This document shows positions 38,513-48,311 of a stretch of DNA of 64,000 nucleotides, piece by piece (the first letter of the stretch is position 1; each line of letters begins with the position of its first letter). Location: NCBI RefSeq assembly GCF_002234535.1, contig NZ_CP022521.1:4898001-4962000 (forward strand), read 5' to 3'. The translations under genes and the position numbers were made by a program. The notes beneath the pieces were generated by a model that made no database searches, was not told the DNA's origin, and saw only the letters and a list, made by a program, of their open reading frames with translations. The DNA is from Actinoalloteichus hoggarensis. Lineage in GTDB: Bacteria > Actinomycetota > Actinomycetes > Mycobacteriales > Pseudonocardiaceae.

Positions 38513-39478
38513 TCATCGTGGAGACGCGGGCGGTCGACACCGGTGAGGGCCGAATCGTGCGGCGTCGGCGGGCAGACTCGCATAGGCGACGTCGAAGATC
38601 GTCTGCACCGACACCGACTCCACCGACAGCCGACTCAGTCTGCTGTCGTGCGCGTCGAGTTCGTCGACCACGCGGCTGACCGGGAGCCGGGGGCGGGCGG
38701 CCAACCGCGCACCGGCCACCGACAACGCCACGGGCAGGCCCCCGCACTGCCGGGCGAGCTTCGCCGTGGCCTCTCGTTCCGCCGAAGCGCGTTCCTCGCC
38801 GACGAAGCGTGTCAGCAGCTCCACGGCGCCGGTGTCGTCCAACGGCGACAGATCGACGAAACGAGCACCGTCCATGCCGAGCCCGATGAGCCGCACCCTG
38901 CTCGTCACCACCACCACGGACCGGTCGGAGGACGGCAGCAGCGGTCGGACCTGGGCCGCGGTGGCGGCGTCGTCCAGCAGCACGGCGACGGCCTTGTCGG
39001 CGCTCATCGTGCGGAACAGGCTCGCACGCTCCGACAGATCGTCCGGAATCCGTTCGTCGGCGACGCCCAGCGCCCGGAGGAAGCCCGCGAGCACTCGGGC
39101 CGGTGGGACCGGCTCGCCGCCGCCGGACCCGCCGAGGTCGGCGTAGAGCTGCCCGTCCGGTGTCTCGTCGGCGAGCTGTCGCAGCCAGTGGGCGGCCAGC
39201 GTCGTCTTCCCGACTCCACCCAGGCCGGAGACGACGGTCATGAATCGACCGGCGCTGTCGGATCGCATTCCGTCGAGTAGTCGAAGTTCCTCGACCCGGC
39301 CCGTGAAGCGACTCGATCCGAACGGCATCTGCCGGGGAATCGTGATCTGATCCGGCCTTTCAGCGGTGTGCAGATGAAATCCACCGTGTATCGGACCTGC
39401 CTGCACCGCACTGCCGAAGACCGTGCCGGCGAGGGCATTCACCACGCCGATGCTCTGCTGCTCGGAATCCTCCTCCAT
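38513..39478 (-). CDS. NB-ARC/STAND ATPase, C-terminally truncated
   Basis: A 321-residue protein starting MEEDSEQQSIGVVNALAGTV, with GSSRFTGRVEELRLLD before the nucleotide fold. P-loop GLGGVGKTTLA (~82-92), Walker B-like VAVLLDDAATAAQV, sensor VVVTSRVRL and ARQCGGLPVALSVAGARL (GLPxA box). NB-ARC proteins of actinomycetes normally continue with a winged helix and TPR repeats; here the frame becomes unrelated sequence after AYASLPADAAR and ends at 38513. That junction is next to the lower-GC EspC-like island, suggesting the gene lost its 3' half by insertion or deletion. ATG 39478 is preceded by GGAGGA-like sequence. Confidence 0.75.
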   Translation of the reverse strand: MEEDSEQQSIGVVNALAGTVFGSAVQAGPIHGGFHLHTAERPDQITIPRQMPFGSSRFTGRVEELRLLDGMRSDSAGRFMTVVSGLGGVGKTTLAAHWLRQLADETPDGQLYADLGGSGGGEPVPPARVLAGFLRALGVADERIPDDLSERASLFRTMSADKAVAVLLDDAATAAQVRPLLPSSDRSVVVVTSRVRLIGLGMDGARFVDLSPLDDTGAVELLTRFVGEERASAEREATAKLARQCGGLPVALSVAGARLAARPRLPVSRVVDELDAHDSRLSRLSVESVSVQTIFDVAYASLPADAARFGPHRCRPPASPR

Positions 39479-39744
39479 GATCCCCCCACCGCTACCCGCG
39501 GACACGCCGGAAGCCGTCCGCCCACCATGCCGCACCCACCGACACGCTGACGATCGATCATAGTGGTGAAATCCACGATGTCCTCGATACACGCGGGCCG
39601 AGGCCGAATTCGTCGGCTGTCCCGGAAATCGAATACCCATTCGATGGTGATTCGACAATGCCAAGCACGGCGGATCGTGGTCGGTCACGCACCAGCCGGT
39701 GCCGCCGTCACGTGTAGCCCGGCGGCACCGGCGGTGGCCTCACC

Positions 39745-40425
39745 TCATCCCGCCTCCCGCGCGGGCCCCAGGCTGATCAGGCCGCACCCGTAGGCCTTGG
39801 CCCGCCCGATCCCGCCGAGGACCGCCGCACGCAAGGCCTCGACGTCGGTGGGCACGAGATGCCCGTCGAAGCGGACGGGCTCGATGGTGATCTTGTTCCC
39901 GTCTGTTCGGCCGTGCAGGCTCGGCCGAGGCGCGGGCGCGACGTCCGCCTGACCGTCGCGGCCCACCGGCAACACGAAGCCGTGCTGCTCGCCCTTCCGC
40001 GCCAGCCACTCCACCTGCTTGGCGGGCAGCCGCTGCGGCACGGGCTTGCCGCGCCCCCTGTTCCCCGACACGGAGTCCGGTGGATGAATCGCCCGAGTGG
40101 GATTGCCGACCAGTCGGAAACCGATCTTGCGACCAGGAGCGATCAGCCGTAGGAACGGATCGAGCGAACGGACGTCCGGCGGGGCGGCCAGGTAATCGGC
40201 GGGCAGCGCCGCCCACTTCGGTTCCAGCCTGCTCTGCACGAGCAGGACGAAGCCGCGCTCGTGCTCGTCGAGTCGCCACAGCGCCCCGCAGTGCTGGCGG
40301 GCGGTCCGCTGGACATCGAGGTCGGGGAAGGCCGACATCACGGTGCGGTGCATCTGATGGACGTCGGCGTAGTCCAGGCGGAAGTTCCGCGAGGTCACGT
40401 CGACGGTGAGTCGACTCAGGAACAC
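39745..40425 (-). CDS. cas6e: Cas6e crRNA endoribonuclease
   Basis: A 226-residue Cas6e/CasE, which cuts pre-crRNA in the repeat and stays on the 3' hairpin in Cascade. N-terminal FLSRLTVDV then HQMHRTVMSAFPD, where a His/Tyr site is usual; C-terminal Gly-rich loop GIGRAKAYGCGLISLGP, the family hallmark. GTG at 40425 has GGGAGA upstream and overlaps the cas5e stop by 10 nt. It is the last cas gene: no cas1 or cas2 follows, and the next gene downstream is an NB-ARC ATPase. Slightly longer than E. coli CasE. Confidence 0.93.
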   Translation of the reverse strand: MFLSRLTVDVTSRNFRLDYADVHQMHRTVMSAFPDLDVQRTARQHCGALWRLDEHERGFVLLVQSRLEPKWAALPADYLAAPPDVRSLDPFLRLIAPGRKIGFRLVGNPTRAIHPPDSVSGNRGRGKPVPQRLPAKQVEWLARKGEQHGFVLPVGRDGQADVAPAPRPSLHGRTDGNKITIEPVRFDGHLVPTDVEALRAAVLGGIGRAKAYGCGLISLGPAREAG

Positions 40426-41186
40426 GGGCGGTCTCCCGGCGAGATCATGGCTGGCGTGAGCGGGATGTGAAGCGTCGTGAAGGATCGGCTGGCGAAACGG
40501 CGATCGCCCCGGGCGAAGGACAGTGGATGGTCGGAGCGGATCTCGGCGTTCTTGTCGGTGGCGTCGCAGTCGATCACGGCTCGAAGCGGGGGCGGCGGAT
40601 CCGGATCGCCTGCACCGTGAAGGCGAGCGCTGATCCGGGCGCGGTTGACGCCGGTCTCCAGCCACGGGTGCTCGTGGAGGACCGCAGCCGGCGATCGCTC
40701 CGACAGGCCCCAGCCGGACGGAGCCTCCGCCGAACCTTCGCCCAGCAGCGGCCGGGACGGGACGAAGGCCTTACGGCCGAAGAACAGCGGCCACGCCGGA
40801 GACCGAAGCGCCGCCTCGGCCCGCAGCAACAGCGCCTCCTGTTCGGGCCCCTCCCCCGCCAGAACCACCAGGAACAGTGCATCGGACAGGTGATAGCGGT
40901 GGCTGACCACCGTGCGATGCCCGCCGCCCTCGGTGTTCGGAACGTTCTGTGCGGTGTGAAAGTCGACTTCCAGTAGTCCTTCCCGATCGACGCGAACGCC
41001 GAGCCTCAACTCCGCCAGTGCGGCGATCGACGCTCGGTCGTCCCGGTCGATCCCCATCGCGGACGCAACGACGCCGACCACCCCGGACTTCGTCGGTTCC
41101 CGGGCGGTGTCCCGCTTGATATACGCGGATCTCGTGCCCCAGGACTGCATCGGCGCGTCGAAGCACACCGCAAGCGAGAGCGTCAC
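40416..41186 (-). CDS. cas5e: Cas5e, Cascade subunit
   Basis: A 256-residue Cas5e/CasD that binds the 5' handle of the crRNA. N terminus SLAVCFDAPMQSWGTRSAY, then REPTKSGVVGVVASAMG with the basic and Gly features of the family; FHTAQNVPNTEGGGHRTVV and SHRYHLSDALFLVVLAG follow. ATG 41186 overlaps the cas7e stop by 4 nt. Confidence 0.94.
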   Translation of the reverse strand: MTLSLAVCFDAPMQSWGTRSAYIKRDTAREPTKSGVVGVVASAMGIDRDDRASIAALAELRLGVRVDREGLLEVDFHTAQNVPNTEGGGHRTVVSHRYHLSDALFLVVLAGEGPEQEALLLRAEAALRSPAWPLFFGRKAFVPSRPLLGEGSAEAPSGWGLSERSPAAVLHEHPWLETGVNRARISARLHGAGDPDPPPPLRAVIDCDATDKNAEIRSDHPLSFARGDRRFASRSFTTLHIPLTPAMISPGDRPCS

Positions 41187-42415
41187 GGCGCCGGAACCAA
41201 GGTCTCGGGCTGCTCCCGAGGCGAGACGCCCGCCGTGGTCAGCACCCGGCTCGCGAAGTCGTCGAGGCTCGGTGCGACGTCGTCGACGGCGACGTGCGGC
41301 AGGTCGCCGGAGACCGTGGCCGCGGTGACCGAACGAATCGCGGTGTCGCCGTAGAAGCGGCGCAGCGAGCCGAAATGGTGCAGCATCCGCTCAGTGGAGT
41401 CGGTCATCAGATCGAGGCTGTCCACCGGCTTGAGGAAGGCGTTGGCCAGGTTCCACGTCCCGCTGTCCCGCACCACGCCGAGGAACGCGTGCGGCATGGT
41501 CAGCGCGGCCATCGAGTTCTGCTTGCCGCTGGGCCGAGCCTGCACGAAGGCATACAGCCAGGCCCGGGCGGTGCGGGCCAGCAGATCACCGTCGCCCCCC
41601 AGGTTCGTGCCGAGCTGGCCCAGGTCGACGTTGGCGTACCGGTAGTAGCAGGCCGAGTTGAAATCGACCGTGCCGATCATGTCGGCGCCGGAGGCGTCCC
41701 CGGGCTTCTCGTCGTCGACGGCCGTGTAGTAGTCGAACTCCGAGGCCACCGCGTGGGTGGAGATGGCGTGTGCGACCTGGGAGGCGGCATCGACGTTGAA
41801 ACCCTTGTTGTCGGCGATCATCCGCCCGAAGAGGGCGACGTCGGCGACCCGACGCGCGTCCAGGACCCTGGCCGCCGCTTCGAGCTGTTCCTTCGACGGC
41901 TTGATCTTCGCGGCCTTGGCGGCGGGCTTCGCGGGGGGCTGTGTGCCGTCCTTGGCGGCCGACTTCTTCTGCTCGGCCTTGGCCGCGGCGGCGGCCTTCT
42001 CCTCGACCTTGGCGATCAACTCCGCTTGTTTGTCGATGCAGTACTGCGCCAGGAACTCCGAGGCCTGCCGCCCGACGAAGAGCAGGTATTCGGTGAGCTG
42101 GGTGCTGCGGTCGATGCCGAAGCCCAGCGTCGCCAGGCCTTCCGCCACGATCAGCCTGGTGTGTTCCTCGGGGCCGAGGTTCTTCTCCGTCAACCGGGCC
42201 GCCGCCTGGTGCAGGAGGCGCTTGGTCCGAACACCGGTCTCCTCCTCGGCCAGCCCGTTCTGGGTGAAGTACTGCCGGGCGGAACGTTTCAGACTCTGGC
42301 TGGAGATCCGGCCCCGAACGGCTCCGCCGAAGGTGGCCGTCTTGGGCTGGCCCATGTCGTCGCGGTTGAGGTTGCTCACCGGAAACGACTGGAGCAGGTG
42401 CAGTTCGATGATCAT
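41183..42415 (-). CDS. cas7e: Cas7e backbone subunit with Ala/Lys-rich insert
   Basis: A 410-residue Cas7e/CasC, the six-copy backbone that coats the crRNA. N terminus ELHLLQSFPVSNLNRDD then PKTATFGGAVRGRISSQSLKRS; the conserved region HAVASEFDYYTAVDD and FNSACYYRYA follows. The protein is about 50 residues longer than usual because of a low-complexity Ala/Lys/Pro insert at ~135-178 (AKVEEKAAAAAKAEQKK, PPAKPAAKAAKIKPSKEQ). The start directly abuts the cas11 stop (TGAATG), so translation is coupled. Confidence 0.94.
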   Translation of the reverse strand: MIIELHLLQSFPVSNLNRDDMGQPKTATFGGAVRGRISSQSLKRSARQYFTQNGLAEEETGVRTKRLLHQAAARLTEKNLGPEEHTRLIVAEGLATLGFGIDRSTQLTEYLLFVGRQASEFLAQYCIDKQAELIAKVEEKAAAAAKAEQKKSAAKDGTQPPAKPAAKAAKIKPSKEQLEAAARVLDARRVADVALFGRMIADNKGFNVDAASQVAHAISTHAVASEFDYYTAVDDEKPGDASGADMIGTVDFNSACYYRYANVDLGQLGTNLGGDGDLLARTARAWLYAFVQARPSGKQNSMAALTMPHAFLGVVRDSGTWNLANAFLKPVDSLDLMTDSTERMLHHFGSLRRFYGDTAIRSVTAATVSGDLPHVAVDDVAPSLDDFASRVLTTAGVSPREQPETLVPAP

Positions 42416-43078
42416 TCAGTTCTCCGTGTCGATGGTGGAGCCTGCGGAATCGGCGGGGCTGTCGGCGGGCTCGCCTGCTGGATCGACGTCACCGTCCGGT
42501 TCCGGATCGGCTGGCTGGAGTCGGGGCCGGTGGTAGTCCCGCGCCCAGGCGAGGCGGACCCGCCGCTTCGTCGCCTCCTCGGTGCGCTCGCCGAGGAGAA
42601 CGATCACGTCGTCGAGCAGCAGCCCGTAGTCGAGGGCGATCTTCTTGCTGCGCAGCAACTGGACCATGTGACGCAGGTAGTGCGGGAGGTTTCGCCGGTC
42701 GACCCCGAGCAGCTGCTCGAACCGGCGGTCGATGGTGTTCTCCCCATCCCCTTTGAGGTCGCGCATGGCGATCCCCAGCGTGCGGCTGCTGTCGCGCCCC
42801 CGCGCCTGCCGCGGCTGCGGATGGATGCCGAACAGGCCGCCGACCAGGAGCCAGGCCTCCTGCTCCCCTTCCGCGGGCAGCGCGTCGAAGACCAGTCGGT
42901 AGGCGTGCGACGCCTGATGTGTGCCGGACAGGCTCCGGCGCAGCGAGGCCAGCGCCCGACGCGCCTCCGACACCAGATAAGGGTTCTCGGAGTTCAGCTT
43001 CGAGTGCAGCAGGTACAGCGAGTCGGTGAATACATCGCGATTCCTGGCACGCCGGGTGGCCTGCGTCTCCGTCGTCAC
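42416..43078 (-). CDS. cas11e: Cas11e/Cse2 small subunit
   Basis: A 220-residue Cse2/CasB. Recognisable parts are ARRALASLRRSLSGTHQ, LLVGGLFGIHPQ, DLKGDGENTIDRRFEQLLGV and LPHYLRHMVQLLRSKKIALD, all typical of the helical small subunit dimer that stabilises the displaced DNA strand. A disordered acidic tail of ~40 residues (PDGDVDPAGEPADSPADSAG) is extra. GTG 43078 overlaps the cas8e stop (GTGA). Confidence 0.92.
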   Translation of the reverse strand: MTTETQATRRARNRDVFTDSLYLLHSKLNSENPYLVSEARRALASLRRSLSGTHQASHAYRLVFDALPAEGEQEAWLLVGGLFGIHPQPRQARGRDSSRTLGIAMRDLKGDGENTIDRRFEQLLGVDRRNLPHYLRHMVQLLRSKKIALDYGLLLDDVIVLLGERTEEATKRRVRLAWARDYHRPRLQPADPEPDGDVDPAGEPADSPADSAGSTIDTEN

Positions 43079-44754
43079 GTGGGCTCTCCCTCGTCGGGGC
43101 GGTGATCAGTGCGCTGCTCGCGCCGATCATCGGAATAGAGGAACGCGCCGACCTCTCGTCGGTAGAGCACGAGCCGCGTCCCCAACTCGGCGCGGAAGCG
43201 GCCGTCGTGTTTTCCTGCCAGGGAAAGCTCTCGGGCACCCCGTCGGGCCGCGCCGTACACCCAGCGGTCGGCCGCGGCGTTGGCGACGCGGGCCACCGCG
43301 CGACGCCATGCTTCGACGGCGGCATGCTCCTGGGAACCGTTCCGGTCGGACCGCATCGCCGCACCCAGGTCGAGGATGAAGGTGTGAAACGGCGCGGTCA
43401 GCTGCGGCCAGTAGGACACCTCCAACGCGGGCGGGGATTTCACGGCGAAGTCCTCGCGGTATCCCTTGTCCAGCCGCCGAAGCAGGAATCCCACGTCGTC
43501 GGCGAGGCGGCAGGAATGGCCGACCACCGCACCGAGCCGTTCCCGCTCCGATTCCGTGCGCAGCAGGGCGACCGGTGCGGGCACCGACTCCTCCAGCCAG
43601 GTCTGCACCACGGCCTGCTTGCTGTCGAGCTGTTGGCCGAAGACACGCAGGGTGAAGACGGCATCCTCGGGCAGCAGGCCGTATTCGGTCCGCCGGGCGA
43701 TCGCGTCCAGTGCGGCGGGCCGTCGCCGATCGCTCTGCTCGATGTTCCGACGTTGCTCGGCGGCCAGCAACAGCTCCTCGGCATGGCGCCAGACTCCCCG
43801 TTGTTCTTCCAGCCGAACGGGATACCGCTTGGAGTTCCCCCGCGCCGTGCCCCGCACTATGGGCCTGCGCAACGCCGCCATCCATTCGTGTTCCTGGTCC
43901 TCGGCGACCGGACGCAGCCTGGTTCCCGGGGTGATCACGACGCCGTCGACCACCGGATCGTCCGGGTCGCCGTCGGTGGTCAGCAGTACCCGCCGCGAGG
44001 GCCACGTCAGCAGGTCGGTCCAGCCGAGCGGCGTCCGTTCGACGGGCTCCGGACCGCCGACCTCGGTGTCCTCCCAGCTCGGGCGGTCTTGTACTCCAGT
44101 CCCGGGAGGCTGGTCGATCAGGGGATCGTAGGAGAGGAGATTGAGGAGCAGCGTCTCCTTGAGGGTGCCGCCCTCCACCACCACACAGCCGAAGTTGTTG
44201 GCGGGCGCCCGTTCCGAGGATCTCGGTGCCTTCGGATAGGCGCCCGACTTCAGCCCGCCCGGGTCGTAGCACTGCAGAGTCACCAGCCATCGGGCTGCCT
44301 CGGCCGGGCTCAGCGTCAGTCTGTCGGCCGAGGTGGTGTGGTCGAAGAGCGTGGCATTACTGCCGCTCGCCCGAAAGGGCACCAACCGAGCAATACCCGA
44401 CGGGGCGACGGAGGAGAGACTTCGGCTTTGCAGGAACGGCCGCTCGGGGTGGAAGAGATCGAATGAATTCCGATCGCGTGCCAGAAAGTCCTCCCATTGC
44501 CTGGTACGCAGGTCATCACGTTCCCACAGCTGCGCCCAGTCTTCATCCGTCGCAGGCCGGAAGACTCGATGTGTCACGGCCAGGACCAGTCGATACAGGG
44601 CGGCCGTCATCGTCGGCGACGCCCCGACCAGCCTGCACAGCGAACCGGACCGACCGAACAGATCGGCGAGGCCGACTTCGACGGAGGCTCCCTCCAGCGT
44701 CACGACGGGAATCCACGGCTCGTCAAGAAGGTTGAATCGCATCTCACCCCACAT
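43075..44754 (-). CDS. cas8e: Cas8e/Cse1 large subunit
   Basis: A 559-residue Cse1/CasA that reads the PAM and recruits Cas3. N terminus FNLLDEPWIPVVTLEGA then VEVGLADLFGRS, ALYRLVLAVTHRVF and FLARDRNSFDLFHPERPFLQ; later PANNFGCVVVEGGTLKETLL and LLNLLSYDP match the family. Start ATG 44754 or an internal ATG at 44742 (GGGGTGAG just before) cannot be separated; the latter would give MRFNLLDEPW, the usual beginning. A 133-bp gap separates it from the Cas3 tail ORF. Confidence 0.94.
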   Translation of the reverse strand: MWGEMRFNLLDEPWIPVVTLEGASVEVGLADLFGRSGSLCRLVGASPTMTAALYRLVLAVTHRVFRPATDEDWAQLWERDDLRTRQWEDFLARDRNSFDLFHPERPFLQSRSLSSVAPSGIARLVPFRASGSNATLFDHTTSADRLTLSPAEAARWLVTLQCYDPGGLKSGAYPKAPRSSERAPANNFGCVVVEGGTLKETLLLNLLSYDPLIDQPPGTGVQDRPSWEDTEVGGPEPVERTPLGWTDLLTWPSRRVLLTTDGDPDDPVVDGVVITPGTRLRPVAEDQEHEWMAALRRPIVRGTARGNSKRYPVRLEEQRGVWRHAEELLLAAEQRRNIEQSDRRRPAALDAIARRTEYGLLPEDAVFTLRVFGQQLDSKQAVVQTWLEESVPAPVALLRTESERERLGAVVGHSCRLADDVGFLLRRLDKGYREDFAVKSPPALEVSYWPQLTAPFHTFILDLGAAMRSDRNGSQEHAAVEAWRRAVARVANAAADRWVYGAARRGARELSLAGKHDGRFRAELGTRLVLYRREVGAFLYSDDRREQRTDHRPDEGEPT

Positions 44755-44887: not shown

Positions 44888-45292
44888 CTAATACTCCCGG
44901 ACGAGCAGCCCCAGGCCTTTCTCGTACCGCACGCGCGCACCACCGATGGCGACGCCGTCAGGGGGCAGGACCAGAGCCCGGTATCCACCCAGCCAACCGG
45001 AGTCCACGAAGGCGGCAGGCGTCGGCAGCTCGGCCAGTGCGTCGACGACCGCCGCCGAGAACTCATACGGTGGGGTCAGGCGGAGGGAGGAGTTCCACAG
45101 GGCGGTCTCCATCTCCTCGGTCAGCTCGCCGAACCGGTGGAGGACCAGCGGCGTGTCTCCCGCCAGTGGGGTCGCGGACTGCTCCCCTATGCGGGTGGCC
45201 GGTTCGGTGACGTCGTCCGCGAGCAGGATCACGAGACGCAGCTCGGCAGGCTCCACACGATCCGCGGCACGGCCCCGGTCATCCTGCGTCAT
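44888..45292 (-). CDS. Separate ORF for the Cas3 C-terminal domain
   Basis: A 134-residue protein. Its last part (PPYEFSAAVVDALAELPTPA, AAFVDSGWLGGYRALVLPPD, GGARVRYEKGLGLLV) matches the C-terminal domain that closes type I-E Cas3 proteins. It begins with an ATG 14 nt before the cas3 stop, with AAGGGG upstream at proper spacing, so it can be translated by coupling. A G4 run at 45300-45303 (as C4 on the plus strand) is where a one-base change would fuse the two frames into a Cas3 of about 1,030 residues. So this is either a genuine split subunit, a slippage site, or a base-call error. Previously it might be annotated as a hypothetical protein. Confidence 0.65.
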   Translation of the reverse strand: MTQDDRGRAADRVEPAELRLVILLADDVTEPATRIGEQSATPLAGDTPLVLHRFGELTEEMETALWNSSLRLTPPYEFSAAVVDALAELPTPAAFVDSGWLGGYRALVLPPDGVAIGGARVRYEKGLGLLVREY

Positions 45293-47969
45293 CCGGACGC
45301 CCCTTCTTGCGAGTCTGATTCGCCGACGTCGGATTACCCGTCAACCCGCCGAAGACGAGTTGGCCGACGGGCTGCGGCACACGGACCTTGTCAGCGCGAT
45401 GGGCGTCGTCCCGCGCCAGAGCCGCGGCAGCCGTGGCCTTCTTCCAGGCCGCCGCGAGTTCCGGCGGCACCGGCTGGTCGAACTCCTCGGCGTAGAGCCC
45501 GTCGACCAGGCCGCGCAGATCGGCTGGGCAGTGGATGAGTCGATCTCCCTCCGACGGCCCGAGGCCGCTGCGGTCCCTGTGTTCGCTCTGCTCGCCGTGC
45601 GCACGCGGCAGGGCGGCGAGTAACAACCAGGTGCGAAGCAGGAGCAGCGCGGGATAGATCCGCACGGTGTGCGACGGGAACTCCACGCCCTTCGACGTCC
45701 GGGTAGCGCCCATCACCACCAGCCGCACGAACAGCGGCTCGGTGCCCCGGTCCTCGTGCCTGCGAATCCGTCCCGCACGCTGGATCAGGCTGTCGATCGG
45801 CGCGAGATCACTCGCCATCAGGTCGAAGCTGAGGTCGAGGCCCTGTTCGAGGACCTGCGTGCCGATCACGATGGTGGGGCCGGTCTCGGTGGCTGCCCGG
45901 CCGAACCGGGCCGTCAGTCTCTCTTCCGCCGCGGCGCGCTCGGCCGCCGTCAGATGGCTGGTGATGGTGATCCGTTCGAGCCCGCCGAAACCGTGTCGAC
46001 CGCCGCGTCGGGACAACGCCCGGTGAAGCGCCTCGTCTGTCGCCTTCACTCGCCGCACCAGGTTGTGCACCACGGCGATCCCGATGTCCTGCCCCGCGTC
46101 CAGCGCGGCCTTGACCTCGTCGAGCAGCCAGTCCGCCCGCGCGTCGACATCGTCGTCGTCGGGGAGCGTGTCGAGATCGACCGCGATGACGCGATTGCCG
46201 TTGCGCTGCGAAACCCTCGCCGCCCCGGACGCGGGCTCGATGTCCCTCCAGGTGCGCACCCCGCCTGCATCCGCCCAGGTCAGTTCCGGGTAGGAGGACG
46301 CAACCTGCACCAGGTCGACCTTCGCGACAGGCAGTCCGAGCCGTCCCGCTCGCCAGACTCGGATCAGCTCGTTCTTCCGGTTCGTGGGCAGCGTCGCCGA
46401 CATCAGGATCACGGGCACGCCCAGCCTGCCCGCCCAATGGAGCAACCGGTCGATCAGGATGGACATGTAGAGGTCGTAGCCGTGCACCTCATCGAGGATC
46501 AATACCTTGTTGGACAGTCCGGTCAGCCGAACGAAGACGTGCTTCGAGCGGATCACGCCCATCAACATCTGGTCGATCGTGCCGGTGCCGACGGGGGCGA
46601 TGATGCCTCGGTTGCGCACGAACCATTCCGGGACCGCCCCCTGCGGCTCGTCCTCGTGATCCCGGTCGACGTCCGCGACCACGACGGGACGGCGACGCCT
46701 TTTCGGGCCGCCTGCCGCCGCGATTCGCGCCTGAATCCTCGGATGCTGATCGGCGGCGCCGTGTAAGAGACGCACCCGCATGGCGGGCTGGTGATTCGTG
46801 ACCAGGTCGTCGAGTTCGGTGAAGACCTGATCGCCGGTGGCCCGGGTGGGCATGCCCTGGTACATGCCGGCCAAGCCAAGCCTGCGTACCAGGACGGCCG
46901 CAGCCTGGATGCCCAGCCTGGTCTTCCCTTCGCCGGTGGGTGCCTCCACCACGAGCAGGCCCGGCTCCGTCACGCCGTCGAGCAGCCGCTCCGCTGCCAC
47001 CTGCACCGGGCGAGGAACGGTCGGCTCGGTCTCGGTGCCGGGAAACAGCGTCGTGAAGCCCGTGTTCTCGGGTGGTCGCCATGGCGTCCAGTCCAGCCTC
47101 GTCACTGCCCTGACCGCCTGCGGGTCGGTGCCCTGCGCGTACTCGACCAGCTCGATGTCAGGGCCGACCCACGGGAAGTTGTCTCGATCCGAGGCGATCC
47201 AGTCACTGACCGAGGTGAGTCCGGCCAGCCCGACCGCGCCCGCCAGGCCGATCTCCGCCGTGGAGTTCTCAGTGCGCCAGGGAAGCGAATCCCACGCGGG
47301 CAGCTTCCAGAGTTCGAGCAGTCGCCCGACCAGGTTCCGGGCCCGCTGCTCCTCGTCCCTTCCTCCGTTGTCCCGAATCATGGCGCCGGTCTCGGCGCGA
47401 CGGGCGGCATCCGGAATGTATCCATGATGTCCGCCGAGTCCCCAGGCGATCGCCTCGATCATCGACCGATGCGCCTTCACCTCCCTCAACATCCGAGACA
47501 GGTGCAGTTGGGTGACCCAGCCGTGCGGCGGGTCGACTCGGACGGCGCCTTTCGGCTGCGCCGCCCGTCGCAGGGCAGGCTCCGTCGGTGCATCGGCATG
47601 CGACCGGAGCGCTAGATCGATCCGCAGGGCCTGGAACGCTGGAGCGATCTTGCCGAGGTCATGAAGCCCACTGAGGACGGCCGCCCAGCAGCGAGCGTTC
47701 TCCTCCGCGCCGCCCGGGCCGCCGAACCGGCCGAAGGCCGCCGTCATCTCGGCTTGGACCGTGGGTCCGAGCAGCAGCGGATACAGTCGATAGGCGACCG
47801 CCGCCGTATCGAGGGCATGGCAGATCAGCGGGTGGGGTACCGACTCGTTCGCCGACTTGGCCCAGGCCCGCAACAGATCGCGATCACCGTCCCGGGCAAC
47901 GGACGATCGCGGTGGCGATGCTGAATGATCCTCGATCACGCCGAGGAAGCTAGAGGAGCGACCCGACAA
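45279..47969 (-). CDS. cas3: Cas3 nuclease-helicase (HD and helicase parts)
   Basis: An 896-residue type I-E Cas3 that nicks and degrades DNA bound by Cascade. HD nuclease: HPLICHALDTAAV, SGLHDLGKIAPAF, then GGHHGYIPDA. Helicase SF2: Walker A EAPTGEGKTRLG, DEVH box ILDEVHGYD, SAT motif ILMSATLPTNRK, and VIGTQVLEQGLDLSFD plus QRAGRIRRH. It lacks the C-terminal domain, which lies in the overlapping ORF. The TTG at 47969 is the first start; no Shine-Dalgarno precedes it and a GTG at 47939 is an alternative. Head of the minus-strand cas operon. Confidence 0.95.
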   Translation of the reverse strand: MSGRSSSFLGVIEDHSASPPRSSVARDGDRDLLRAWAKSANESVPHPLICHALDTAAVAYRLYPLLLGPTVQAEMTAAFGRFGGPGGAEENARCWAAVLSGLHDLGKIAPAFQALRIDLALRSHADAPTEPALRRAAQPKGAVRVDPPHGWVTQLHLSRMLREVKAHRSMIEAIAWGLGGHHGYIPDAARRAETGAMIRDNGGRDEEQRARNLVGRLLELWKLPAWDSLPWRTENSTAEIGLAGAVGLAGLTSVSDWIASDRDNFPWVGPDIELVEYAQGTDPQAVRAVTRLDWTPWRPPENTGFTTLFPGTETEPTVPRPVQVAAERLLDGVTEPGLLVVEAPTGEGKTRLGIQAAAVLVRRLGLAGMYQGMPTRATGDQVFTELDDLVTNHQPAMRVRLLHGAADQHPRIQARIAAAGGPKRRRRPVVVADVDRDHEDEPQGAVPEWFVRNRGIIAPVGTGTIDQMLMGVIRSKHVFVRLTGLSNKVLILDEVHGYDLYMSILIDRLLHWAGRLGVPVILMSATLPTNRKNELIRVWRAGRLGLPVAKVDLVQVASSYPELTWADAGGVRTWRDIEPASGAARVSQRNGNRVIAVDLDTLPDDDDVDARADWLLDEVKAALDAGQDIGIAVVHNLVRRVKATDEALHRALSRRGGRHGFGGLERITITSHLTAAERAAAEERLTARFGRAATETGPTIVIGTQVLEQGLDLSFDLMASDLAPIDSLIQRAGRIRRHEDRGTEPLFVRLVVMGATRTSKGVEFPSHTVRIYPALLLLRTWLLLAALPRAHGEQSEHRDRSGLGPSEGDRLIHCPADLRGLVDGLYAEEFDQPVPPELAAAWKKATAAAALARDDAHRADKVRVPQPVGQLVFGGLTGNPTSANQTRKKGRPDDAG

Positions 47970-48092
47970 TTCGGGTGGATTCCAGGAGAATTCGGCCCAC
48001 GACGGAGAAATTAACTCTAAAGAGTGAACTGCACCGAATTAGGTCATTGCGCTCACAATTATTCTCGCCATCGCGCACGACGGAGCAGGACC
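47970..48092 (-). promoter_or_regulatory. AT-rich promoter region of the cas operon
   Basis: The 120 bp upstream of cas3 is much richer in A/T than anything nearby and must contain the cas promoter. It has an inverted repeat ACTCT-AA-AGAGT at 48014-48025, and on the minus strand the stretch AATTGTGAGCGCAATG (about 48043-48058), which looks like a half-site of the lac-type operator. No promoter hexamers are certain. Confidence 0.45.
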
Positions 48093-48311
48093 TCACGCCC
48101 CCGGCGCGAACACCCGCACCCTGTCCTCGCCGACCATGACGACGTCGCCGGGAAGGAGCTGTCGGCCGCGTCGGGACTCGGGCTCGCCGTTCACCGTCAC
48201 CTCGCCCGCGCCGAGCAGCTCGCGCGCGTCGCCGCCGTCGGCAGCGAGGTCGGCCAACTTGAGGAACTGGCCCAGCCGGATGCCGTCGTCCTGGATCTCC
48301 ACGTCGCGCAT
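48093..48311 (-). CDS. S4-domain RNA-binding protein
   Basis: A 72-residue S4-fold protein of the YbcJ/RqcP-like type: DDGIRLGQFLKLADLAADGG (~8-27), ELLGAGEVTVNGEPESRRGR, and LLPGDVVMVG. The S4 fold binds RNA; small members act in ribosome quality control or tRNA modification. ATG at 48311 has only a weak upstream GATGAG. It precedes the cas operon on the same strand but is separated from it by the AT-rich promoter region. Confidence 0.8.
   Translation of the reverse strand: MRDVEIQDDGIRLGQFLKLADLAADGGDARELLGAGEVTVNGEPESRRGRQLLPGDVVMVGEDRVRVFAPGA

Follow-up and report, generated by a model that had tools for sequence, protein, structure and literature searches.

The cas operon

The window, the stretch of 64,000 nucleotides that we analysed, is bases 4898001-4962000 of G000, a single-contig genome of 6.6 Mb. 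Relatives of its cas3, together with its pup-proteasome locus, mark the organism as an actinobacterium. We focused on the interval 47970-48092, which lies between a small gene for an S4-domain protein and the ORF of cas3, both on the minus strand. The minus-strand genes downstream of this interval are the effector set of a type I-E CRISPR-Cas system: cas3, an ORF with a Cas3_C domain, cas8e, cas11e, cas7e, cas5e, and cas6e.

48093..48311, minus strand: gene for an S4-domain protein (PF13275), the upstream neighbour, outside the system; also adjacent in G001 and G002 (synteny)
45279..47939, minus strand: cas3 (type I-E); Cas3e match with E = 1.6e-148, Cas3_HD and Cas3-like_C_2 domains; start revised from TTG 47969 to GTG 47939
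44888..45292, minus strand: separate ORF with a Cas3_C domain (PF18395, E = 2.8e-07)
43075..44754, minus strand: cas8e (profile match)
42416..43078, minus strand: cas11e (profile match)
41183..42415, minus strand: cas7e (profile match)
40416..41186, minus strand: cas5e (profile match)
39745..40425, minus strand: cas6e, start approximate (the Cas6 and Cas6e matches start at residue 81-82 of the ORF listed from 40665)

For comparison we used two congeners, G001 and G002, which both keep the S4-cas3 arrangement and whose cas3 is 61-62% identical to that of the window.

The ORF with the Cas3_C domain overlaps the end of cas3. Among five relatives from Streptomyces, Micromonospora, and Allorhizocola that we compared for this feature (L110-L114), all except L113 have a match at the same place. 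After cas6e comes an ORF for an NB-ARC (STAND) NTPase (38513-39688, minus strand), and similar proteins follow cas6e in both congeners. The protein from G002 has 729 amino acids and includes TPRs, versus 391 amino acids in the window, where it is seemingly cut short. STAND NTPases have been mentioned beside variants without cas3 (PMC12231136), whereas the window's locus has cas3.

The pattern for type I-E repeats had no match in the window, so no such array seems to adjoin the operon. The nearest cluster is about 38 kb past the window's right end, and the genome has nine clusters with three or more matches. Elsewhere, in G018, a single repeat of the I-E kind lies directly before cas3 (L004, at about 1435-1460).

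A putative damage-type promoter at the start of cas3

RecA-NDp promoters have the consensus TTGTCRGTG-N8-TAN3T. When the window, G001, and G002 are aligned from the cas3 side, a conserved block, CGAAnTGTCGG-N10-TAGCTT, ends 7 nt before a GTG codon, with TGTCGG at -29 in all three species. This block, a putative promoter, follows the plan of a RecA-NDp promoter. (It is the second conserved block; the other one, a palindrome, is described below.) Its parts in the window are:

47961..47969, minus strand: -26 box of the RecA-NDp/PafBC type, TTGTCGGGT; 7 of 9 letters match TTGTCRGTG; N8 before the -10 element; occupies -30 to -22
47947..47952, minus strand: -10 element TAGCTT, identical and at -13 in three species; 7 nt before GTG 47939
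47937..47939, minus strand: GTG, predicted to be both the start codon of cas3 and the +1 of a leaderless mRNA; G001 and G002 have the orthologous GTG, likewise after conserved DNA, with TAGCTT at -13 in all three

Positions are counted from the predicted leaderless start at GTG 47939. In TTGTCGGGT-N8-TAGCTT, the 8-nt spacer to the TAN3T-type -10 element is exact, and G001 and G002 have the same spacing. The box matches at 7 of 9 positions in the window and in each orthologue, and stronger copies lie at other cas operons. Over 12 positions, the window's copy and both orthologues have two mismatches, and such a match alone is not rare (about 2% of windows of sequence). A pattern derived from the three orthologous promoters, CGAANTGTCGG-N10-TANNTT, has no further mismatch-free match in the three genomes. 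Consensus scans of 47850-48200 found no sigma-70 promoters and no intrinsic terminators.

The position of the -10 element suggests where the transcript begins. We collected 524 candidate ATG or GTG starts of high-GC3 ORFs from about 430 kb of the genome, and asked how often TANNNT occurs at each offset. There are 8 cases at -13 and 6 at -12, whereas offsets from -60 to -17 have 0.64 cases each on average. This peak is the signature of leaderless mRNAs. (The window's cas3 is not among these 14 cases because its ORF fell below the GC3 limit.) Since TAGCTT of cas3 is also at -13 of GTG 47939, its mRNA is probably leaderless and would start at that codon. The longer ORF begins with TTG 47969, the codon that opens the conserved box. 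An over-long annotation around a RecA-NDp motif has been described for Rv1955 of Mycobacterium tuberculosis (PMC2897130).

The recA promoter and the other cas operons of the genome

In the same genome, recA is preceded by TTGTCGGTC-CGACCCTC-TAGCGT, 58 nt before the ATG and with an 8-nt spacer, and the identical string precedes recA in G001 and G002. Out of 23 letters, the cas3 promoters share 18 (window), 20 (G002), or 16 (G001) with this recA promoter. The genome also has pafA, pafB, pafC, and tatA in a row, encoding PafA, a WYL-WCX protein (PafB), an HTH_PafC-WYL-WCX protein (PafC), and TatA. PafBC, an activator that responds to DNA damage, acts on RecA-NDp promoters (PMC6789036, PMC8223512). 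PafBC is reported to be activated by single-stranded DNA, to contact the promoter motif at -26, and to lodge between the DNA of the promoter and the domain of sigma that is normally on the -35 element (PMC11804915).

The genome has 19 sites of the RecA-NDp type that deviate at no more than 1 of 12 positions, versus 7 for the reversed pattern. Five of the 19 belong to four other cas operons:

I-E operon at 3.70 Mb: box before cas3
I-E operon at 3.70 Mb (same operon): box 345 nt before the cas8e ORF; 351 nt in the counterpart operon of G002
I-E operon at 4.75 Mb: box between cas3 and the Cas8e domain (Cas8e confirmed; for cas3 itself, the best match has three mismatches)
I-E operon at 5.58 Mb: box before cas3
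Type I-C operon at 2.96 Mb: box before cas5 (I-C genes confirmed)

If we include the window's copy, at two mismatches, all five of the cas operons that we examined in this genome have a box. (A Cas3-like gene at 4699233-4701341 and any type III loci are outside this count.) In G001, a type I-C operon with confirmed Cas5c and Cas7c also has a box before cas5.

Two other observations concern this set of sites. At L161 (about 2.96 Mb), where the I-C operon has both the palindrome and the box, the cas8c (Csd1) match is in two pieces, so that operon may be broken in this genome. And a 1-mismatch site lies before a gene for a WGR-domain protein (L253, 1487-1509), which makes it a candidate damage-response gene.

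Boxes at type I cas operons of the family and phylum

We searched 200 genomes of the family for Cas3e and, among the matches listed, used 83 strong ones from 63 genomes. These are 83 of the 84 listed matches with E ≤ 7.9e-148; we left out G070:C4, whose match begins at profile position 179. The locus of G149 was taken from the start of the first piece, and two of the 83 that have a stop within the first 30 residues were kept. We scanned from -330 to +30 relative to each Cas3e match.

Among the matches listed, 17 of the 83 Cas3e loci have a box with at most one mismatch, from 12 genera and 15 genomes, and 6 of these boxes are perfect. If two mismatches are allowed, the box is found at 34 of these 83 loci (20 genera, 30 genomes), and the other 49 have no copy. 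By comparison, for 300 motifs with permuted letters on the same loci, the mean was 0.13 (maximum 2) at one mismatch and 1.98 (maximum 12) at two. On the antisense strand of these loci, we found the box at 0 of 83 with one mismatch and at 1 of 83 with two. Four control spans, from gene bodies and from distal upstream DNA, had 0/83, 0/83, 0/81, and 0/82 at one mismatch and 0, 2, 0, and 1 at two. Thus a damage-type box upstream of cas operons is common in this family, and it is not universal.

The sites are also placed consistently. All 17 with at most one mismatch are between -138 and -59; among the 17 with two mismatches, four are away from the main cluster (-285, -256, -160, and -6). For 35 box-like words, we looked for TANNNT at spacers of 3-15 and found it at spacer 8 in 14 cases and at spacer 10 in one, and at no other spacer. 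A FastTree tree of the 83 Cas3e proteins requires at least 17 changes of the label (box with at most two mismatches, or none), which means that the box has been gained or lost repeatedly, instead of being one inherited promoter. The labels are nevertheless clustered on the tree (17 changes versus a mean of 26.5 for shuffled labels; 0 of 500 shuffles were as low), so the Cas3e loci are not independent.

Type I-C operons give a similar picture. We examined the DNA upstream of cas3 when it is beside a Csd1 match, which covers 18 of 22 genomes (G000, G001, G086, and G204 are not included). The box is present at 6 of these 18 operons with at most one mismatch and at 12 of 18 with at most two, versus 0 of 18 on the antisense strand with at most two; 5 of the 12 are near-identical sequences from one genus. 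An earlier scan, upstream of cas8c, had found the box with at most one mismatch in just 2 of 22 loci (G000 and G001) and none with at most two in the other 20, because cas3 comes first in most of these.

More broadly, in a draw of 296 genomes from across the phylum, 2 of the 18 Cas3e loci outside G000, which come from outside the family, have a box at one mismatch or fewer, and one of the two is perfect. (For one locus, L307, the upstream DNA is 116 nt long.) Both belong to the window's class: 6 of the 18 loci share its class or order and include both boxes, and the 12 from elsewhere in the phylum have none. Among six relatives of the window's cas3 from outside the family (L110-L115), one has a copy of the box with at most one mismatch. 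The upstream regions of L110-L114 (Micromonospora, Streptomyces prunicolor, and Allorhizocola) have neither the palindrome nor the box, for which their best matches have 3-4 mismatches. By eye, the Micromonospora and Allorhizocola regions upstream of cas3 (L111-L114) share an element that resembles TGTCA...TGACA.

The AT-rich region and its palindrome

The promoter at 47947-47969 is just outside the interval 47970-48092, which overlaps the conserved block by no more than its first four letters (47970-47973). Two features of the interval stand out:

48002..48063, no strand: AT-rich core of 62 nt; 38.7% GC, the minimum among 62-mers of the window
48012..48027, minus strand: palindrome TCACTC-TTTA-GAGTTA, a predicted operator; at -88, -88, and -89 from the GTG in three species

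Across the interval, GC content is 52.0%, versus a mean of 70.7% for the window, and just 0.1% of the window's 123-mers are as low. The orthologous promoters are AT-rich as well: from -130 to -36, GC content is 47% in the window, 53% in G001, and 51% in G002.

The palindrome has the three-species consensus TCACTC-N4-GRGTKA, and none of 20,000 shuffles of the alignment columns reached its score for conservation and symmetry, so its conservation is beyond chance. The base pair that flanks the arms differs among the three species (T-A, A-T, and G-C). Its distance to the stop codon of the S4 gene varies (65, 83, and 319 nt) while its distance to the GTG of cas3 is fixed (88, 88, and 89 nt), so the palindrome is tied to cas3 and not to the end of the S4 gene. 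In the three I-E promoters, it precedes the box by 58, 58, and 59 nt. Related palindromes, TCACTT-AAAC-GAGTGA in G000 and TCATTC-AATC-AGGTGA in G001, are 50 nt upstream of the box at the I-C operon of two species. For the other three I-E operons of the genome, we found no palindrome with at most one mismatch before cas3; at L031, one match with two mismatches lies 359 nt before the cas3 match.

The first-pass annotation had described this stretch as sharply AT-rich, had picked out ACTCT-AA-AGAGT, and had suggested that transcription of the cas operon is regulated. The AT-richness is confirmed. The repeat, at 48014-48025, turns out to be the core of the 16-nt palindrome, and its conservation in related loci, proposed as a check, is what we observe. 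A palindrome that is conserved at a fixed distance from cas3 also supports regulated transcription. So the AT-rich stretch is genuine regulatory DNA upstream of cas3, marked by a conserved palindrome, and the main element is at its edge. The first-pass annotation overlooked that element, the putative RecA-NDp-type promoter, probably because it read the ORF from TTG 47969, the codon that opens the box.

What might bind the palindrome? We predict that it is the site of a second, dimeric regulator. Because its center is at about -80 from the start, an activator or an anti-silencer suits it better than a simple roadblock does, and we infer that one of the former is more likely. As for known regulators, the sites of BldD, GlnR, PhoP, MtrA, HrcA, and WhiJ (for WhiJ9, PMC10294661) were considered and rejected for misfits in the spacing or the arms.

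We also considered, and rejected, the palindrome as the mark of a genome-wide regulon. The pattern TCACTCNNNNGRGTKA has 90 matches in the genome with at most one mismatch, versus 17 for the backwards pattern (a symmetric site is counted on both strands), and hairpins alone enrich palindromes. We inspected 17 hand-picked sites, of which 13 are outside ORFs chosen by a rough rule, and two of the inspected sites look like plain terminators. Of five other exact sites in G002 that were compared, just one is in DNA that is homologous to a site in G000. At that one (L121 at 3042 and L158 at 1501), the palindrome TCACTC-N4-GAGTGA is kept in both genomes, and it could be a further target of the palindrome's regulator.

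Predicted control by PafBC

Our best reading of these sequences is that many type I CRISPR-Cas operons of the family belong to the DNA-damage regulon of PafBC and that a second regulator would act at the window's locus. For the window, we propose that cas3-cas8e-cas11-cas7-cas5-cas6e is read from a leaderless promoter of the RecA-NDp type, that PafBC induces it upon damage, along with recA, and that the palindrome is the second regulator's site. We give this proposal a probability of roughly 0.74. Damage control by PafBC is the best-supported mechanism, as a prediction and not as a measurement, and another factor could read the same box. What the sequences show is the anatomy of the promoter, how it is conserved, that it is statistically associated with cas operons, and that pafBC is present; the action of PafBC at this promoter, the induction, and the regulator at the palindrome are inferred.

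The predicted sequence of events is as follows. DNA damage or phage replication would produce single-stranded DNA, which would activate the WYL-domain heterodimer PafBC. PafBC would then let RNA polymerase with the housekeeping sigma factor use TTGTCGGGT and TAGCTT instead of a normal -35 element (sigma adaptation), and the cas operon would be induced together with recA. The second, dimeric regulator would sit in the AT-rich DNA on the 16-nt palindrome, centered 50 nt upstream of the box. A related palindrome, which might be its site too, precedes the type I-C operon of the genus.

Alternative explanations

Among the other explanations, silencing by Lsr2 is the strongest, and we still consider it unlikely. 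The AT-rich stretch might nucleate this xenogeneic silencer, with a counter-silencer bound at the palindrome. The AT-richness upstream of cas3 is kept in three species and includes the 62-mer with the lowest GC content of the window, and the genome encodes a protein with both Lsr2 domains. (An AT-rich promoter together with an Lsr2 gene is not specific evidence.) Against this, the AT-rich part is short; the cas genes have about 61-74% GC per 200-base step, and the first 900 nt of cas3 have 68%. Also, promoters in GC-rich genomes are commonly AT-richer. Lsr2 would be compatible with control by PafBC, as a second layer.

Somewhat less probable than silencing, in our view, is that the box and -10 element form a constitutive sigma-A promoter for the cas genes, whose resemblance to RecA-NDp promoters is inherited or coincidental and has no role in the damage response. 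The window's copy does have two mismatches, and TANNNT at -13 is by itself typical of leaderless genes here. Yet N8 is the spacing in 14 of 15 pairs of box and -10 element, perfect copies are at 6 of the 83 Cas3e loci among the matches listed, on separate branches of the tree, and the promoter is like the genome's own recA promoter.

A third idea, that the palindrome is an intrinsic terminator of the upstream S4 gene instead of an operator, seems improbable. It is an inverted repeat, and in the congeners short T runs come after it. However, it keeps its distance to the GTG of cas3 and not to the S4 stop, the scan of 47850-48200 had no terminator-like site, and a related element is at a fixed place before the I-C operon in two species.

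The first-pass annotation also proposed that a LacI-type factor might control the operon, and this part of its suggestion is not supported. It was based on one more feature:

48049..48060, minus strand: lac-operator-like half-site AATTGTGAGCGC, judged coincidental; full word absent from the intergenic DNA of G001 and G002

The 12-letter word is indeed present, as in the lac operator, but it is a single half-site. AATTGTGAGCGC is followed by AATGACC instead of by a second, symmetric half-site, and neither congener has the complete word between its S4 gene and cas3. In that DNA, the best partial copies match 9/12 letters in G002, at -119, and 8/12 in G001, at -123, while the window's word is at -121; the similar distances could reflect a weak relation or a poorly conserved site. 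From base composition, we estimate that about 0.3 such 12-mers are expected per genome. With a lone half-site that is conserved at no more than 8-9 of 12 letters, LacI-type control is very improbable.

Finally, cas operons that are repressed by a guide RNA from a degenerate upstream CRISPR repeat are known, and one can sketch a weak hairpin by eye near 48070-48092, but the genome's eight forms of the I-E repeat align to this region no better than to shuffles (best 16/29, equaled by 65-66 of 300 shuffles), so we give this explanation the least credence of all.

Implications

Little is known about how actinobacterial CRISPR-Cas systems are switched on. If the proposed control by PafBC is right, a damage-inducible cas promoter would tie adaptive immunity to the state of DNA repair in the cell. 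It might account for the apparent silence of native systems in cultures without DNA damage, and it would suggest a simple route to induction, with DNA-damaging agents or with active PafBC. It also raises the question of whether incoming replicating DNA induces CRISPR in general.

A broader claim, to which we would give even odds, is that type I operons of the family (both I-E and I-C) are often standing members of the PafBC regulon, so that immunity would be wired to the RecA-independent damage response that single-stranded DNA triggers. Because Cas3 and phage replication both make single-stranded DNA, interference could raise its own expression and so amplify itself. As part of the same claim, a second dimeric regulator, with the site TCAYTY-N4-RRGTGA at 50-59 nt upstream of the box, would gate two unrelated cas operons of one genus.

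Comparison with known systems

A 2025 review of CRISPR in actinomycetes names the control of a type III-A system by CnpB and, in the portions available, nothing for type I (PMC12231136). In the passages that we consulted from open-licence texts on PafBC and RecA-NDp promoters, CRISPR appears in the form of CRISPRi tools or with other WYL or RNA-binding proteins, and not as cas targets of PafBC, so a prior report is possible.

Several known systems are similar in part. In E. coli, cas3 of the type I-E system is under CRP (PMC7019758), so a transcription factor governs a I-E cas promoter there as well; unlike in E. coli, we recognised no CRP-like site here by eye, and the core promoter is of the damage type. 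In Synechocystis 6803, the WYL-domain proteins Sll7009, Sll7062, and Sll7078 govern a CRISPR system, but they are reported as repressors that act on crRNA (PMC6789036), whereas we predict an activator of the cas promoter. WYL factors are also linked to anti-phage defence in the cases of BrxR and a CBASS-associated factor (PMC9122589, PMC9122601, PMC9122588). Those factors co-localise with the defence genes, while PafBC, the factor that we predict, is encoded on the chromosome at the proteasome locus.

The closest parallel is the RecA-NDp/PafBC regulon itself, whose members include recA, Rv1955-Rv1957, and SCO6735. The window's promoter shares the N8 spacer and the TAN3T -10 element with them and has a similar box at the predicted -26 position; the genome's own recA has such a promoter, and pafBC is present. 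Like Rv1955 (PMC2897130), the window's cas3 has its RecA-NDp motif inside an over-long ORF. It differs in that the promoter would drive a CRISPR-Cas operon, its box has two mismatches, and an additional conserved palindrome lies upstream.
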